Assembly (NCBI GenBank): GCA_903822175.1
Contig: CAIJOB010000011.1
Span: forward strand, 224,815-288,814
Direction of reading: 5' to 3'
Source of the DNA: an uncultured Alphaproteobacteria bacterium
GTDB lineage: Bacteria > Pseudomonadota > Alphaproteobacteria > Caulobacterales > Caulobacteraceae
DNA length: 64,000 nucleotides
Shown here: piece by piece, positions 51,735-63,591 of the stretch
How positions within the stretch are numbered: the first letter of the stretch is position 1
Layout: each line of letters opens with the position of its first letter
The notes under the pieces: generated by a model
The model's database searches: none
Told to the model about the DNA's origin: nothing
The model's input: only the letters and a program-made list of their open reading frames with translations
Program-made: the position numbers and the translations under genes

Positions 51735-52616
51735 TCACTCCACATTCTGTACCTGCTCGCGGAACTGCTCGATGCTGGCTTTGAGGTCCAGGCCAACCGA
51801 GGTCAAGGCGCCGGACGCCGACTTCGAGCAAAGGGTGTTGGCCTCGCGCATGAATTCCTGGGTCAGGAAGTCCAGCTTGCGCCCGACCCCGCCATCGGTG
51901 GCCAGCAGGGTCCGCGCCCCGTCCACGTGGCCGCGCAGGCGATCCAGCTCTTCCTGCACGTCGGCCTTCACCGCCATGGCGGCTGCCTCCTGCAGAATGC
52001 GCTCCTCGCTCACCGCCTCGCCGGCCAGTTCGGTCATCCGCTTTTCGAAGCGCGCCTTGATGATCGCCGGCTGACCGCCCGCCAGCGCCGAGGCCTTGCC
52101 GGTCAGATCGCCGATCTGGGCCACCAGGCCGGCCAGGACGCCTTCCAGCGCCCGCCCCTCCTCCGCACGCCCAGCCGCCAGCCCATCCAACGCCACGCCG
52201 ATCGAGGCGGCCATCGCCGCCTCCAGCGCCGCTTGGGCGTCGGGGTCCTCCGCCGCGTCCGCCGCCTCGATCACGCCGCGCAGGGCCAGCAGGCCGTCCA
52301 GGGTCGGCGGCTGCACCATGCCAGTCGCCACGTAGGGACCCCCGGCCTTCAGGTACCGCTCCAACTGTTCGACGTTGACCCGCACGGCGCCGGCCTCGTC
52401 GGCCCGCTTGGCCTGCACGCCGACGGTGAGCTGGCCTCGTTGGAAGCGGCTCTGCGCACCCTCCCGCGCCGCCCGCTCCAGCCCCTCGAACCCCGGCGGC
52501 CCGCGGAACCGGATCTCCAGGTTGCGGCCGTTGACGCTGCGCGCCTCTACGGCCCAGGACCACGCGCCAAGCGCACCTTCGGCGCGGCCAAAGCCCGTCA
52601 TGCCGGAAATGGTCAC
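51735..52616 (-). CDS. YicC family endoribonuclease
   Basis: A 293-residue protein of the YicC/YloC family, with N-terminal ISGMTGFGRAEGALG, the middle domain and the C-terminal DUF1732-type end (LTQEFMREANTLCSKS, then KASIEQFREQVQNVE). YicC proteins have been linked to RNA cleavage and small-RNA turnover. The frame is open upstream to 52661, but the GTG at 52616 overlaps the mltG stop by four bases and has GGGAGG before it; this start gives the family N-terminus. Confidence 0.9.
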   Translation of the reverse strand: MTISGMTGFGRAEGALGAWSWAVEARSVNGRNLEIRFRGPPGFEGLERAAREGAQSRFQRGQLTVGVQAKRADEAGAVRVNVEQLERYLKAGGPYVATGMVQPPTLDGLLALRGVIEAADAAEDPDAQAALEAAMAASIGVALDGLAAGRAEEGRALEGVLAGLVAQIGDLTGKASALAGGQPAIIKARFEKRMTELAGEAVSEERILQEAAAMAVKADVQEELDRLRGHVDGARTLLATDGGVGRKLDFLTQEFMREANTLCSKSASGALTSVGLDLKASIEQFREQVQNVE

Positions 52617-53671
52617 TTCCCGCCTCCCGTCGCGGCCCGCGCCCGTTCGATCGCCCGCCACTTGGCCACGTTCGCCTGATGCTCGGCGAAGGTCGAGGCG
52701 AAGACGTGCCCGCCGGTCCCGTCGGCCACGAAATAGAGCTCGTCCGACTTGGGCGGATTGAGCACGGCGGCCAGCGACGCGCGGCCCGGATTGGCGATCG
52801 GCGTCGGCGGCAGGCCGACCATCCGATAGGTGTTGTAGGGCGTCGGCGTCAGCAGCTCCTTCATGGTGATCCCGCGCCCCAGTGGCCGGCCCTTGCTGAT
52901 GCCGTAGATCACCGTCGGGTCGGTCTCCAGCTTGATCCCCTGGCGCAGGCGATTTTCGAACACCGCGGCGATGCGCGGGCGCTCAGCCGGGACGCGGGTC
53001 TCCTTCTCGACGATGGAGGCCAGGGTCACCGCCTCCTCCGGCGTCTTCAGCGGCAGGTCGGGCGCACGCTCGGCCCAGAGCTGCGCCAGCAGGGCGTCGC
53101 GGGCCGCCATCATCTTGGCGATGACGTCGCCGCGGTCCTCGCCCCGCTGAACCTGATAACCATCGGGCAGGATCGAGCCTTCCGGCGGGGTCTCGATCGA
53201 GCCCACCAGCACCGGCTGGGCGCGCACCGCGTCGGCCACCATGGCGCTGGTCCAGCCTTCCGGCGCCACGACGACGCGTTTGACCACCTTGCCCTCGGCG
53301 ATGTCGTTCAGCACCTGAGACATCGAGGCGTGGCTGGGAAACTCGTATTCCCCAGCCTTCAGGCGTCGCCCCGCGCCGCCCAGCTTGGCTGCGAAATAGA
53401 AAACATCTCGCGAGCCGATCACGCCCGCTGCCTTCAAGGCGCTGGCGATCTGCCCGACCCCGGCGCCCTTCGGAAGGATGACGTCGGTGACGGCGCCATC
53501 ATTCGCTGCGGGGCCCGGCCCACGATAGGTCCAATAGACCCAGCCGCCGACCAGGACCGCCGCGATGACAAGGGTGCTGACGACTCGGCGGATCATGCTC
53601 AGCGGACCTTGCCCTTTTCGGACAGGCCTGCGCCCCCATTTCTTGAAGATCGGGCGCGGCCGCCGGCTCAC
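52613..53671 (-). CDS. mltG: Endolytic murein transglycosylase MltG
   Basis: Cleaves nascent glycan strands at the inner membrane during cell-wall elongation. The 352-residue protein has a basic cytoplasmic N-terminus, one membrane segment at about 30-48 (VVSTLVIAAVLVGGWVY), a LysM-like domain, and the YceG catalytic domain with the Glu in LASIVEKETRV and the ETDPTVIYGIS and PYNTYRMVGLPPTPIANPG motifs. GTG start overlapping the fabF stop by four bases; an ATG 25 codons further in is an alternative. Confidence 0.94.
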   Translation of the reverse strand: MSRRPRPIFKKWGRRPVRKGQGPLSMIRRVVSTLVIAAVLVGGWVYWTYRGPGPAANDGAVTDVILPKGAGVGQIASALKAAGVIGSRDVFYFAAKLGGAGRRLKAGEYEFPSHASMSQVLNDIAEGKVVKRVVVAPEGWTSAMVADAVRAQPVLVGSIETPPEGSILPDGYQVQRGEDRGDVIAKMMAARDALLAQLWAERAPDLPLKTPEEAVTLASIVEKETRVPAERPRIAAVFENRLRQGIKLETDPTVIYGISKGRPLGRGITMKELLTPTPYNTYRMVGLPPTPIANPGRASLAAVLNPPKSDELYFVADGTGGHVFASTFAEHQANVAKWRAIERARAATGGGK

Positions 53672-54969
53672 GTGACCTTCTTGAACACCACCGACGCGTT
53701 GGTCCCGCCGAACCCGAAGGAGTTGGAGAGGGCGACGTCGATCTTCATCGGCTTGGGCTTGTGCGGCACCAGGTCGATCTGTGTTTCCACAGACGGATTG
53801 TCGAGATTGATGGTCGGCGGCGCGATCTGGTCACGGATCGCCAGCACCGAGAACGCCGCTTCGATGGCCCCGGCCGCGCCCAACAGGTGCCCGGTGGCCG
53901 ACTTGGTCGAGCTCATCGTCGCCTTGCTCGCCGCATCGCCCAACAGGCGGGTCACCGCCCCCAGCTCGATCTCGTCGCCCAGCGGCGTCGAGGTGCCATG
54001 CGCGTTAATGTAGTCGACGTCGGCCATCTCGATGCCCGCGTCCTTCAGCGCCGCCTTCATCGCCCGGAAGCCGCCGTCGCCGTCATCGGCCGGTGCGGTG
54101 ATGTGATAGGCGTCGCCCGCCAGGCCGTAGCCGGCCACCTCGGCGTAGATCTTCGCGCCGCGCGCCTAGGCGTGCTCGTACTCTTCCAGCACCAGGACGC
54201 CAGCGCCCTCGCCCATCACGAAGCCGTCGCGGTCCTTGTCGTAGGGGCGGCTGGCCTTTTCCGGGGTGTCGTTGAAGCCCGTCGACATGGCGCGCGCGGC
54301 GATGAAGCCGGCCATGCCCACCGGACAGATCGCCGCTTCCGCGCCGCCCGCGATCATCACCTCGGCGTCGCCGTACTTGATCAGCCGGGCCGCGTCGCCG
54401 ATGGCGTGGGCTCCCGTGGCGCAGGCGGTCACCACGGCGTGGTTGGGGCCCTTGAAGCCATAGCGGATCGAGACCTGGCCGCTCGCTAGATTCACCAGCG
54501 CCGAGGGGATGAAGAACGGGCTGACGCGGCGCGGGCCCTTCTCGTGCATCTCGATGGAGGTGCGCTCGATGGTCGCCAGACCGCCGATGCCGGAGCCGAT
54601 CATCACGCCTGTGCGCTCGCGGCCCTCGACGTCGTCCTCGCCAGGCTGCCAGCCGCTGTCCTTCACCGCCTCGTCGGCGGCGGCGATGGCATAGAGGATG
54701 AAATCGTCCACGCGCCGCTGATCGCGGGTTGAAAGCGTCTGATCGGGATCGAAGGAGCCGGGCACATCGGGTCCGCCGCCGCCACGCCCATCGACGCGCG
54801 GCACCTCTCCGGCCACGCGGCAGCCGAACTCCTCGGTGATCTCGAAGGTGGTGACCTTCCCGATGCCGGACTTGCCGGCCAGGATATTGGCCCAGCTGAT
54901 CTCGGTCCCCTGACCCAGGGGCGTGATCAGACCGATTCCGGTGACGACGACTCGACGGTTGCTGCTCAA
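53668..54969 (-). pseudogene. fabF: Beta-ketoacyl-ACP synthase II, interrupted by an in-frame TAG
   Basis: Elongating condensing enzyme of fatty-acid synthesis. The reading frame is continuous with the family, 433 codons, except for a TAG at 54168-54166 (codon 268). The local sequence is EEYEHA-stop-ARGAKIYAEV where related enzymes have Lys; AAG to TAG is one base change. The catalytic Cys (VVTACATGAHAIGDAA) lies before the stop; both catalytic His residues (NAHGTSTPLGDE and KSATGHLLGAAGA) lie after it, so the truncated product would be inactive. I choose the TTG at 54969 because GAGGA precedes it; a TTG at 54984 is the alternative. Downstream mltG overlaps by four bases. Confidence 0.9.
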
Positions 54970-54988
54970 GGGCGCGATCCTCAAAGGA

Positions 54989-55053: not shown

Positions 55054-55293
55054 TTAAGCGCCCAGCTTCTCAGCGATGAACTTCACGGCGTCGCCGACCG
55101 TCTGGATATGCTCAGCGGCGTCGTCCGGGATTTCGATGTCGAATTCTTCCTCGAAGGCCATGACCAGCTCGACGTTGTCGAGGCTGTCGGCGCCCAGGTC
55201 GTCGATGAAGCTGGCCTTCTCGGTCACCTTCTCCGGATCGGCGTCCAGGTGCTCGATGACGATCTTGCGGACGCGTTCTAGGACGTCGGACAT
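55054..55293 (-). CDS. acpP: Acyl carrier protein
   Basis: Carries growing acyl chains on a phosphopantetheine arm. The 79-residue acidic protein has the attachment Ser37 in [11 protein letters not shown] and the canonical helices. The open frame reaches 55392, but [12 protein letters not shown] at 55293 is the conserved N-terminus. It lies 84 bases before the fabF start and 138 bases after fabG. Confidence 0.97.
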
Positions 55294-55431
55294 TAGGTAG
55301 GTCCCTTTAAAGTTCAGGCTTTGCATCGGCGAGCCGGGCCCTGGAGTCAACTCCACAGTCTCGCTCACCGAAAGTGGTTGCGGCGTTAGCATGTTCCCAT
55401 GTGGGAAGGCGAGAGCTTCAAATCACCCTCT

Positions 55432-56172
55432 CTAGATCATCGCCATCCCGCCGTTCACGTGCAGGGTCTGGCCGGTGACATAGGCCGCCTCGGCGCTGGC
55501 GAGATAGACGCAGGCCGCCGCCACCTCGTCGCCGGTGCCCAGGCGCTGCGTCGGGATCGTCCCCAGAATCCCCGCCTTCTGGGCGTCGGTCAGCCCATCG
55601 GTCATCGGGCTCTCGATAAACCCCGGCGCGACGCAATTGACGGTGATTCCCCGGGTGGCGACCTCCTGGGCCAGCGCCTTGGAGAAGCCGATCATCCCGG
55701 CCTTTGAGGCCGCATAGTTGGCCTGGCCCGGATTGCCCATCACGCCGACGATCGAGGTGATGCCGATGATCCGCCCGTTGCGGCGGCGCATCATGCCCTT
55801 GGTGGCCGCGCGGCTGAGCCGGAAATAGCTCTCGAGGTTGACCTTGATCACCTCGGACCAGTCCTCGTCCTTCATGCGCAGCAGGAGCCCGTCCTTGGTG
55901 ATGCCTGCGTTGGCCACCAGGATGTCGATGGGCGCCCCGGCCGCGGCCTCTGCGGCCTCGATCAGCCCATCCACCGCCGCCGAATCGGAGAGATTCGCCG
56001 GAACCGCCGCGGTCCGCGCGCCCAGCTCCAACGCGCGCTCCTGCAGCACCGCCTCGCGGGTGCCGGAGAGCACCACAAAGGCCCCCTGGGCGTGCAGGGC
56101 CTTGGCGATGGCCGCGCCGATGCCGCCGGTGGCGCCGGTGACAAGGGCGGTCTTGCCGGTCAGGTCAAACAT
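55432..56172 (-). CDS. fabG: 3-oxoacyl-ACP reductase
   Basis: NADPH-dependent reduction of beta-ketoacyl-ACP. The 246-residue short-chain dehydrogenase has TGATGGIGAAIAKAL (nucleotide site), NAGITKDGLLLRM, and catalytic Ser plus YAASKAGMIGFSKAL with Tyr at about 152. It starts 9 bases after fabD. Confidence 0.96.
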   Translation of the reverse strand: MFDLTGKTALVTGATGGIGAAIAKALHAQGAFVVLSGTREAVLQERALELGARTAAVPANLSDSAAVDGLIEAAEAAAGAPIDILVANAGITKDGLLLRMKDEDWSEVIKVNLESYFRLSRAATKGMMRRRNGRIIGITSIVGVMGNPGQANYAASKAGMIGFSKALAQEVATRGITVNCVAPGFIESPMTDGLTDAQKAGILGTIPTQRLGTGDEVAAACVYLASAEAAYVTGQTLHVNGGMAMI

Positions 56173-56181
56173 GGCGGCTCC

Positions 56182-57126
56182 TTAGAGGCTGGCGGCGAAG
56201 GCTTCGAGGTCGGCGGGGGAATTGAGCGGCGTCGCCTCGGCGTCCGGCGCGATGCGCTTGGCCATGCCGGACAGCACCTTGCCGGCGCCGGCCTCGGCGA
56301 AGCGGGTGACCCCGCCCTCGCCCGCCAGCCAGAGCATGCTTTCCCGCCAGCGCACCCGGCCGGTCACCTGCTCCACCAGCATCCGGCGGATCGCCTCAGG
56401 GTCCAGCGTCGGCTGGGCGGTGACATTGGCCACCAGCGGCGCGCGGGGCGCCAGGATCGTCGCCGCCGCCAGCGCGACCGCCATCTCGTCGGCGGCGGGC
56501 TGCATCAGCGGGCAATGGAAGGGCGCGGACACGTTCAGCAGGATGGCGCGGGCGCCCAGCTCCTTGGCCTTCTCGATGGCCAGGTCGACGGCGGCTTTCG
56601 AGCCGGAGATCACCACATTGCCGGCATTGTTGTCGTTGGCGACCACGCAGACGCCAACGGCCGAGCCCGCCTTCGCGCATTCCTCGGCCAGCGCCACGTC
56701 GCTCTTCGGCCCGATCAGCGAGGCCATCGCGCCCTCGCCCACCGGCACCGCCCGTTGCATGGCCTGGCCGCGCAGCTTCAACAGGCGCGCGGTGTCCGCA
56801 AGGCTGATCGCGCCCGCCGCCGCCAGCGCCGAATATTCGCCAAGGCTGTGGCCGGCCACGAACGCCGCCTTCTCCACGCCCACGCCGAATTCCTTCTCCA
56901 GCGTGCGCATCACCGCCAGGCTGACGGCCATCAACGCCGGCTGGGCGTTCTCCGTCAGCGTGAGTTGATCCTCCGGCCCCTCGCGCATCAGCTTCGAAAG
57001 CTTTTGCCCAAGCGCGTCATCCACTTCCTGGAAGACCTCCCGCGCCGCACTGAAGGCCTCGGCGAGGTCAGCGCCCATGCCCACGGCCTGGCTGCCCTGG
57101 CCGGGAAAAAGGAAGGCGAGGCTCAT
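56182..57126 (-). CDS. fabD: Malonyl-CoA:ACP transacylase
   Basis: Transfers malonyl groups from CoA to ACP. The 314-residue enzyme starts MSLAFLFPGQGSQAVGMG, has the nucleophile Ser in FVAGHSLGEYSAL at about 92, and the catalytic His in NVSAPFHCPLMQ near 200. An in-frame TTG one codon upstream is possible, but the ATG has GGAG at good spacing. First gene of the fab run. Confidence 0.96.
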   Translation of the reverse strand: MSLAFLFPGQGSQAVGMGADLAEAFSAAREVFQEVDDALGQKLSKLMREGPEDQLTLTENAQPALMAVSLAVMRTLEKEFGVGVEKAAFVAGHSLGEYSALAAAGAISLADTARLLKLRGQAMQRAVPVGEGAMASLIGPKSDVALAEECAKAGSAVGVCVVANDNNAGNVVISGSKAAVDLAIEKAKELGARAILLNVSAPFHCPLMQPAADEMAVALAAATILAPRAPLVANVTAQPTLDPEAIRRMLVEQVTGRVRWRESMLWLAGEGGVTRFAEAGAGKVLSGMAKRIAPDAEATPLNSPADLEAFAASL

Positions 57127-57227
57127 CAAGGTGCTCCGGCTCTATCGATTCCGAGCCGCGAGGGTTACGGAATAAGGAAAGCCCCGGCAAGGCGGCGAAG
57201 TTTCGGGCGGATCAGGGGGAAACACCC

Positions 57228-60535: not shown

Positions 60536-63500
60536 TCGCACCGCACTCTTTGTGACGGCGGCCGCGGTCCAGCTCTGCGCGACCGGAGGGCGGCCTTGGC
60601 CCGCGACGCGGGCGCCGGCGACGCGATCGGCGCCCTGTTGCTTGGCGCCAGAGGGCCGCCCGAGCGCGCCGCGCCGTCCAGCCGCCCGTCTGGGCCGGGA
60701 GACGCGGTCGCCAGGTACCTGGTCACCGGCCAGCAGTTCCATGCCATCTCGCGCGCGCCACCTGAGCGCGCGCCCGTGGTTTTGGCGTCCAACGACCGGG
60801 TGGCGGCTGCCCCCCTCGCTGCGCAGTCCCCGGCCTATCCGTCAGGCGCGTCCGCCGACCGGATCGGCGCCCTGCTGACCGGCGGCGTCCTGCCACAACC
60901 GGCCACGCCCAGCGCGCCGCCTCCCCCGCCGCCGCCGCCGGCCGTGACCCGCGCGGTGACGACCTCGCGCTTCCCGGCGCCCGATCCGCAGACCCTGCTG
61001 CTGCTGGCGGTCGAAATCGACGGCCTCAATCTCGCCGACGGCATGGCCGCCTACGGCATGCCCGAGGATCCGCAGCTGCCGGTCGGCGAGCTCACCCGGC
61101 TCCTGGAGATGGACGTCGACGTCAGCCCCAGCGACGGGCGCGTCACCGGCCGCATCGGCGAGTCCCGCCGCGCGCTGACCATCGACGTGGCCACCAACAC
61201 CGCGCGCATCGGCCCCGTGCAGGTTACCCTCGAGCCCGGCGACGTGGTCGTCGAGCCCGGCGAGATTTATGTTCGCGCCTCGGTCCTGGCCAAGCTCCTG
61301 CCGCTGCAGTTCGCCGTCGACTCGCGCAATCTGCAGATGAAGCTGACGGCGACCGAGATCCTGCCGCTGCAGGGCCGCCTGGCCCGTCTCGCCCGCCTGC
61401 GCCAAGGCGCCGCCAAGCCCGCGACGCCGGTGCTGCGGGTCGAGGAGCCCTATCAGCTCTTCAGCCCGCCCTCCTTCGATGTCGCGCTCGGCGTGGGCGC
61501 TCAGAACGTCACGCCCCGGGCGCCGACCCAGTACGACATCCGCCTGGGCGGCGATCTGCTCTATTCCGGCCTGCAGGCCTATTTCGGGTCGGACGACACC
61601 GGCAAGCTGACCACCGGCCGGGTTCTGCTGGAAAAGCGCTCCATCGACGGCGACCTCCTGGGGCCGCTGCACGCGCGCGTCGTGGGGCTGGGCGATGTCT
61701 TCACGCCCGGCCTGGCCATCGGGCCGCGCAGCCTGGGCGGCCGCGGCATCCAGCTTTCCACCGCCCCGCTCGACCAGACCAACGTCTTCAACCGCGTCGA
61801 CCTGCGCGGCGAGCTGCCGATCGGCAACGACGTCGAGCTCTATGTGAACGACGTCCTGCAGGGCTCTCAGAGCCAGGCGGTCAACGGCCAGTACGAGTTC
61901 CTGTCCGTGCCCCTGACCCAGGGCGTCAATGTCGTGCGCATCGTGACCTACGGCCCGCATGGCGAACGCAGCGAAGAAACCCGGATCATCAACGCCGGCG
62001 GCGGCCTGCTGCACAAAGGCCAGACCACCCTCGACTTCGCCGCCGTCGAGCAGAACGAGCCCCTGCTGCACATCGGCGACACCTCCGACCCGTTCGTGAT
62101 CGACCACATCACCGGCAAGCCGCGGGTGATCGCCAATCTGAACTACGGTCTGACGCAATACGTGACGCTGGTGGCGGGCGGCGCGCTCTACACCGACCAG
62201 CTGGGCGTCCAGCGCCAGCTCGCCAATACCGGCCTGCGTACCTCCATCGCCGGCTTCGCCACCGAGTTTGACCTGGCCGCCGACAACCTGGGCGGCGAAG
62301 GCGCTTCGCTTGGCGTGGCCGGCCGGCTGTTCGGGAGCAACATCCTGCTGCGCCACTCGGAATACCGTGGCGGCCTGCTCGACGAGAACAACGCCGAGGC
62401 CGACCTGGAGCGGCCGCTCGACCGGCGCACCGAGATCGACCTCGACCGCAACATCCAGTTCGGCGCTCAGCCGATCCCGATTTCCGTGCGCGCGCTTCGC
62501 GACGCCTACGCCGATGGCGGCGTCAACTGGATCACCCAGGTGCGCGGCTCAGCCTCCCTGGGGCCCCTCCTCTACTCGACCGGCCTCGAGTACGACCATG
62601 ACCTGCTGGTCACCGGCCAGGTCAGCGACTTCCTGAAGGGCTTCGTCGGGGTCTCCACCTTCCGGAAGTACCAGTGGCAGGTCCGCGCGACCCTGGACTA
62701 CGTCGCCCTCCCCGATTTCGCCTGAGCGGCCTGGAGATCCTCGCGGACCGTTCGATCAACGACACCTGGGCGCTTCGTTTCGGGGTCACCGGCCAGCTGG
62801 ACACCCCGAAGGACATCGGCTTCCTGGCCGGCACGACCACCAAGACCAAGTTTGGCGACCTGGCGCTCACCGGCCAGTACGACACCCGCCAGGGCACGTG
62901 GCGGCTGGGCGCTCAGATGAACTTCGGCATCGGCTACAATCCGGAGAAGGGCTACCAGCTGACCCGCTCCGGCCCCGGCTCCGGCGGCTCGGTCTCGTTC
63001 CACGCCTTCATCGATTCCAACGGCAACGGGGTCTACGACCCGGGCGAGAAGCCGGTGGCCAATGTCAGCCTCGAGGGCGGCAGCCTGAAGGCCAAGACCG
63101 ACTCCGACGGCCGCGCCTACCTGAGCGGCTTCGGGGCCGGCCCCACCGCGCGCCTGCTGGTCGGCATCGCCGAGATCGAGGACCAGCAGGTCAAGACGCC
63201 GCCCAGCGTCATCGAGTTCTCGCCCCGTCCAGGCGGCGTCACCCAGATCGAATACCCGATGCGGCCCACCGGCGAGGTGATGGTCACCGTCAAGCTGCGC
63301 CGCCCCGACAAGACCCTGGTGGGCCTCTCCGCCACCCGCGTGCGGCTGATCGACGCCAAGGGCCTGGCCCTGGAAGGCGTCACCGAGTTCGACGGCTCGG
63401 TGAATTTCCTCGATGTCCCGGCCGCGACCTACCGGCTCGAGCTCGACAAGGAGCAAGCCGAGCGCCTGCGCATGCGCCTGATGGCCCCGGTCACCGTCAC

Positions 63501-63591
63501 CATCAAGCCCGACGGTTCGGGCGCGCCCGACACCACCGTCGAGGTGGAATTCCAGCCCCGCGAGGACGCCGCCGCGCCGCCGCCGGGGTGA
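60516..63591 (+). pseudogene. Outer-membrane usher-like protein, two apparent frameshifts
   Basis: Usher-type outer-membrane protein of a chaperone-usher pathway. A TTG at 60516 begins a signal-peptide-like stretch (MRNSSFNRTALFVTAAAV, QLCATGG), but the main body reads in another frame from about 60590. That frame has an Ala/Pro-rich N-terminus, an N-domain (PQTLLLLAVEIDGLNLADGM), plug-like part and barrel to 62725. It then ends early (ALPDFA-stop); the rest resumes one frame over (RFRLSGLEILADRSIND) and runs to 63591 with a DSNGNGVYDPGEKP Ca-binding-like Ig module. One missing T in the TTT run at 62716-62718 restores the family sequence LPDFRLSGLEIL. The N-terminal join also needs one base, but the true start is less sure. 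Confidence 0.78.

Follow-up and report, generated by a model that had tools for sequence, protein, structure and literature searches.

How a core fatty-acid gene comes to be interrupted by an amber codon, and whether its product can still be made, is the question raised by a fabF gene in the 64,000-nucleotide stretch of DNA analysed here (the window). The codon is an isolated one-base nonsense change in the sole fabF found in the genome, a draft assembly of 42 contigs (4.02 Mb, completeness 96.5%). Among named FabF records the closest, with 89% identity across the N-terminal half, comes from the draft genome of an uncultured alphaproteobacterium (L034), and the next are mostly from Phenylobacterium and other Caulobacteraceae; judged from these neighbours, the source genome is probably a Phenylobacterium. 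The gene belongs to a fatty-acid cluster on the minus strand with the usual order fabD-fabG-acpP-fabF-mltG (Table 1). The names fabG and fabD are presumed from gene order, Pfam giving the SDR and acyltransferase families.

Table 1. Features of the fabF locus (window coordinates)
Feature	Position	Strand	Description
fabD	56182..57129	-	open frame, Pfam acyltransferase
fabG	55432..56172	-	open frame, Pfam SDR
acpP, upstream neighbour of fabF	55054..55392	-	open frame, acyl-carrier domain
fabF N-terminal piece	54169..54984	-	272 codons before the stop, PF00109, active-site Cys
In-frame TAG	54166..54168	-	cta on the plus strand
fabF C-terminal piece	53668..54165	-	165 codons and normal stop, PF02801, both His and Lys
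mltG/yceG, downstream neighbour of fabF	52613..53671	-	open frame

The stop reads cta on the plus strand, and translation across it gives VLEEYEHA*ARGAKIYAEV. It is codon 273 counted from TTG 54984 and codon 268 counted from TTG 54969, the latter being the number given in a preliminary description of this DNA, which also held that the frame is intact apart from one TAG; the frame is indeed otherwise open from 54984 to 53668, with no second stop or frameshift. Upstream of the TAG, the protein matches positions 1–244 of the FabF profile TIGR03150 (366.9 bits), and downstream of it positions 246–407 (259.2 bits), placing the stop at model position 245. Each piece alone scores below the cut-off of 493.75, which is set for the whole protein; jointly they cover the full length of the model, as a FabF does. 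The stop sits where the two Pfam domains join, the last model position of the N-terminal domain falling at residue 272 and the C-terminal domain beginning at the seventh residue after the stop.

Located upstream of the stop is Cys188, and downstream of it are His329, Lys361 and His366; each of the four is invariant in the proteins of 109/109 relatives. The cysteine and the two histidines are the active-site residues of the KAS family. The TAG ends the protein between Cys188 and His329/His366, so that Cys, His and His do not stand on a single polypeptide, and the product as written should be inactive. The alignment columns thereby bear out the separation of the catalytic Cys from both His that had been proposed from the sequence. 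This alignment holds 109 proteins from loci L005–L113 (107 distinct), with L001–L004, the genome's own copies and paralogues, left aside. In the column of the stop the relatives carry Lys (96), Arg (5), Leu (3), Met (2), Gln (2) or Glu (1); when only the 107 distinct proteins are counted, Lys stands in 94. As a residue is present there in all 109, the TAG breaks a conserved gene and is no chance intergenic stop; the single-substitution nature of the earlier proposal, AAG to TAG, holds.

The rest of the gene is under strong constraint. Against L034, Ka/Ks is 0.0411 for the N-terminal half and 0.0407 for the C-terminal half, values for which synonymous sites are near saturation (1.38 and 0.92). 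Against nine further relatives it is 0.11–0.30 and 0.14–0.23, inside the range of the relatives against one another. Residues changed in this genome alone number 3 + 1, and in L034 alone 3 + 0. Among 142 near-invariant columns in the 109 relatives (139 residue columns and 3 gap columns), 138 of the 139 residues are kept, the sole difference being V/I at position 164. An old pseudogene is rejected on the Ka/Ks of 0.041 in both halves and the lack of further lesions in the frame. A long-disused gene would show decay and fabF does not, so the stop is either very young or not real.

Relatives carry the gene whole. With the C-terminal half as query, an uninterrupted fabF frame of 428–465 residues is found in 36 of 39 relatives; of the other three, G016 is cut by a contig end and the incomplete genomes G003 and G020 give no match. 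The L034 protein matches 289 of the 299 genomes of the family, this one included, and among the matches listed a stop inside fabF occurs in this genome alone. Twenty matches flagged with one TGA, all from genus group g31, have an open fabF frame with the TGA just 5' of the start. At a threshold of 1e-100, 265 of the 268 good-quality family genomes match fabF.

A stop that is not real would point to the assembly. Applied to 1,195,186 bases here, a codon scan returned 38 candidate interruptions, three of which are true breaks as judged by eye: fabF and two on contig C32, at 25867 and 121360. Over 801,897 bases taken from relatives, of which the one-contig genome G021 supplied 500,000, the same scan returned 22 candidates and, again by eye, one true break, which lies in G021, so that the rate here is without excess (binomial p 0.65). 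Two stops close to N-termini, at 291925 on the contig of the window (C11) and at 14541 on C32, escaped the scan, which therefore undercounts, presumably in both sets. A generally error-ridden assembly is rejected by this comparison. The absence of an excess weakens a sequencing or assembly error as the origin of the TAG, yet we keep that origin under consideration; by the same ordinary rate, a genuine mutation has roughly the likelihood here that it would have in a good genome. Counts by protein family, if anything, lean toward more stops in this genome. A TAG lies inside one of 33 TonB matches and one of 51 SDR matches here; in relatives, a TAG lies inside none of 142 SDR matches (three genomes) and inside one among the TonB matches listed, of 178 (four genomes). 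The Fisher test on these family counts (p 0.13) is rough, a guessed 150 relatives' TonB rows having been entered.

The stops on contig C32 lie in an SDR gene (14541, minus strand, TAG), a TonB receptor gene (121360, minus strand, TAG) and a gene for a POT-family transporter (25867, plus strand, TAA). In G021, which belongs to the same genus group, an in-frame TAG lies in an apparent D-2-hydroxyacid dehydrogenase gene (C1:272718; L253 12718–12720, minus strand), of which only the downstream piece has a Pfam match. A further frame on C11 (177207–177855, minus strand) is ribD-like with only the reductase-like part, the deaminase part not being seen, and adjoins an nrdR-like gene, both names being provisional.

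Closer to fabF, 48 matches to open reading frames of relatives fall within 95 kb, of which 42 are uninterrupted and six are flagged. Three of the flagged matches are discarded: G040_58 is an over-long frame of the relative, the stop in G040_72 precedes the real start, and G021_192, spanning fabD on the opposite strand, is over-long as judged from coordinates alone. Three interruptions stand: besides fabF, they are the TonB receptor at C11:291925 and a change of frame close to window position 62715, and some 13 kb spans all of them. Their closeness may point to a stretch where the assembly is weak, though three events prove nothing. The frame change lies in window positions 60983–63582 (plus strand), which match a 970-residue protein of G019 in two frames and probably contain a frameshift; the large N-terminal part of that protein has no Pfam family match. 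The TonB-dependent receptor, 12.9 kb from the fabF stop and 3.1 kb past the end of the window, has its in-frame TAG, by eye, at the end of the likely signal peptide, and G040 has an open frame for it.

Five in-frame stops were met in all, four of them TAG (fabF among them) and one TAA. Several in-frame TAGs raise the idea of amber recoding, and four of five being TAG would favour translation of the fabF stop, in which an amber suppressor tRNA, or weak near-cognate readthrough, would yield some full-length FabF. Under the codon usage of this genome, 68% of random nonsense substitutions are expected to be TAG, so four or more of five is unsurprising (p 0.49). RF1 is present (482.8 against a cut-off of 423.25), TAG terminates 189 of 455 long coding-like frames in the 815 kb examined, and a CTA anticodon occurs in none of the 41 tRNAs of this genome, about 96.5% complete; the amber suppressor suggested earlier is thus not among them, and could sit in the missing 3.5% or so. 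This organism uses TAG as an ordinary terminator, and there is no sign of recoding, which is rejected on four grounds: the presence of RF1, the share of TAG among terminators, the tRNAs, and the substitution spectrum expected by chance. Translation of this one TAG is very unlikely.

Function as two chains is the least credible reading. The stop falls between the two Pfam domains, and the first in-frame GTG past it (54138, the tenth codon) could in principle restart a second polypeptide that assembles with the first into an active enzyme. A restart there would truncate the C-terminal domain, no clear ribosome-binding site is seen by eye 5' of this GTG, and a split frame is absent among the relatives' matches listed. 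We know of no KAS working as two chains. Even taken together, translation through the stop and split function have only a very small probability. Less probable again is that the TAG is both fixed in this species and functional, FabF arising solely by low readthrough or from assembling halves and tuning C18:1 while FabB carries bulk elongation.

The other KAS genes bear on whether the cell could live without FabF. The genome holds three of the FabF/FabB type: fabF, a gene on contig C40 and a gene on C38. The C40 gene is a true FabB (694.8 against the KAS I cut-off of 630), and fabA, fabB and fabI stand intact, side by side, as an operon on this contig. The C38 gene encodes a FabF-like paralogue scoring 353.3, below the FabF cut-off of 493.75. 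The second fabF that had been suggested is therefore not found in this genome, about 96.5% complete. An extra KAS, 54–57% identical, occurs in five relatives (G004, G016, G021, G022 and G023); this genome yielded none.

A nonsense mutation that is real and recent in the sampled strain or population would abolish FabF and leave elongation to FabB (KAS I), lowering C18:1, in which alphaproteobacterial membranes are rich, and raising C16:1. The intact FabB makes such a null plausible, as does the ordinary rate of in-frame stops in this assembly. According to PMC8319022, fabF deletion strains exist in Escherichia coli and Pseudomonas putida, and deletion of fabF1 in P. putida leaves cis-vaccenate almost absent and raises C16:1 from 49.4 to 77.0%. 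With FabB intact and such strains known, the description of the gene as normally essential is an unsafe premise for this organism. Weighing against a real mutation are the strong purifying selection on fabF, its near universality in the family, the near-invariant residues kept over both halves, and the literature, in which, the consulted parts of PMC8319022 and PMC8174602 included, we found nothing on fabF essentiality or dispensability in Caulobacterales. We regard a real recent mutation as a substantial possibility, one that falls somewhat short of even odds.

With fabF undecayed and TAG a normal terminator, the TAG should be either absent from the main genotype or extremely recent. In the first case the base would be an error, of the consensus or of the base itself, or else the assembly would mix strains and carry a minority base here; in the second, the change would have arisen extremely recently in the living population. 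The first of these we judge likelier, as core genes so strongly selected are rarely caught broken, and a consensus error or minority base probably, if by no means securely, lies behind the TAG. Against an error, nonsense codons are not conspicuously frequent in the assembly. The preservation of the rest of the gene makes an error of sequencing or assembly, or else an ordinary mutation of very recent date, the most likely account, with no new decoding involved, and both error and population variant were in the preliminary list of causes.

The practical consequence is one of caution: when a draft genome shows a lone stop in a core gene, the reads should be consulted before a biological interpretation is attached to it. 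Should the stop prove real and fixed, it would be a natural experiment on the extent to which FabB can stand in for FabF in alphaproteobacteria.

Compared with the FabF enzymes described by TIGR03150 and encoded in fabD-fabG-acpP-fabF-mltG clusters, this locus has the same arrangement, its neighbours having open frames and belonging to the families expected there, and differs by the single in-frame TAG at model position 245. The nonsense codon in fabF is an ordinary event. It shares with ordinary nonsense pseudogenes and with nonsense errors of draft assemblies a single substitution in an otherwise undecayed gene, and this genome has further genes with a lone in-frame stop, as G021, judged by eye, has one. 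Unlike the other interrupted genes found here, those for two TonB receptors, a POT-family transporter and an SDR, fabF is a core gene.
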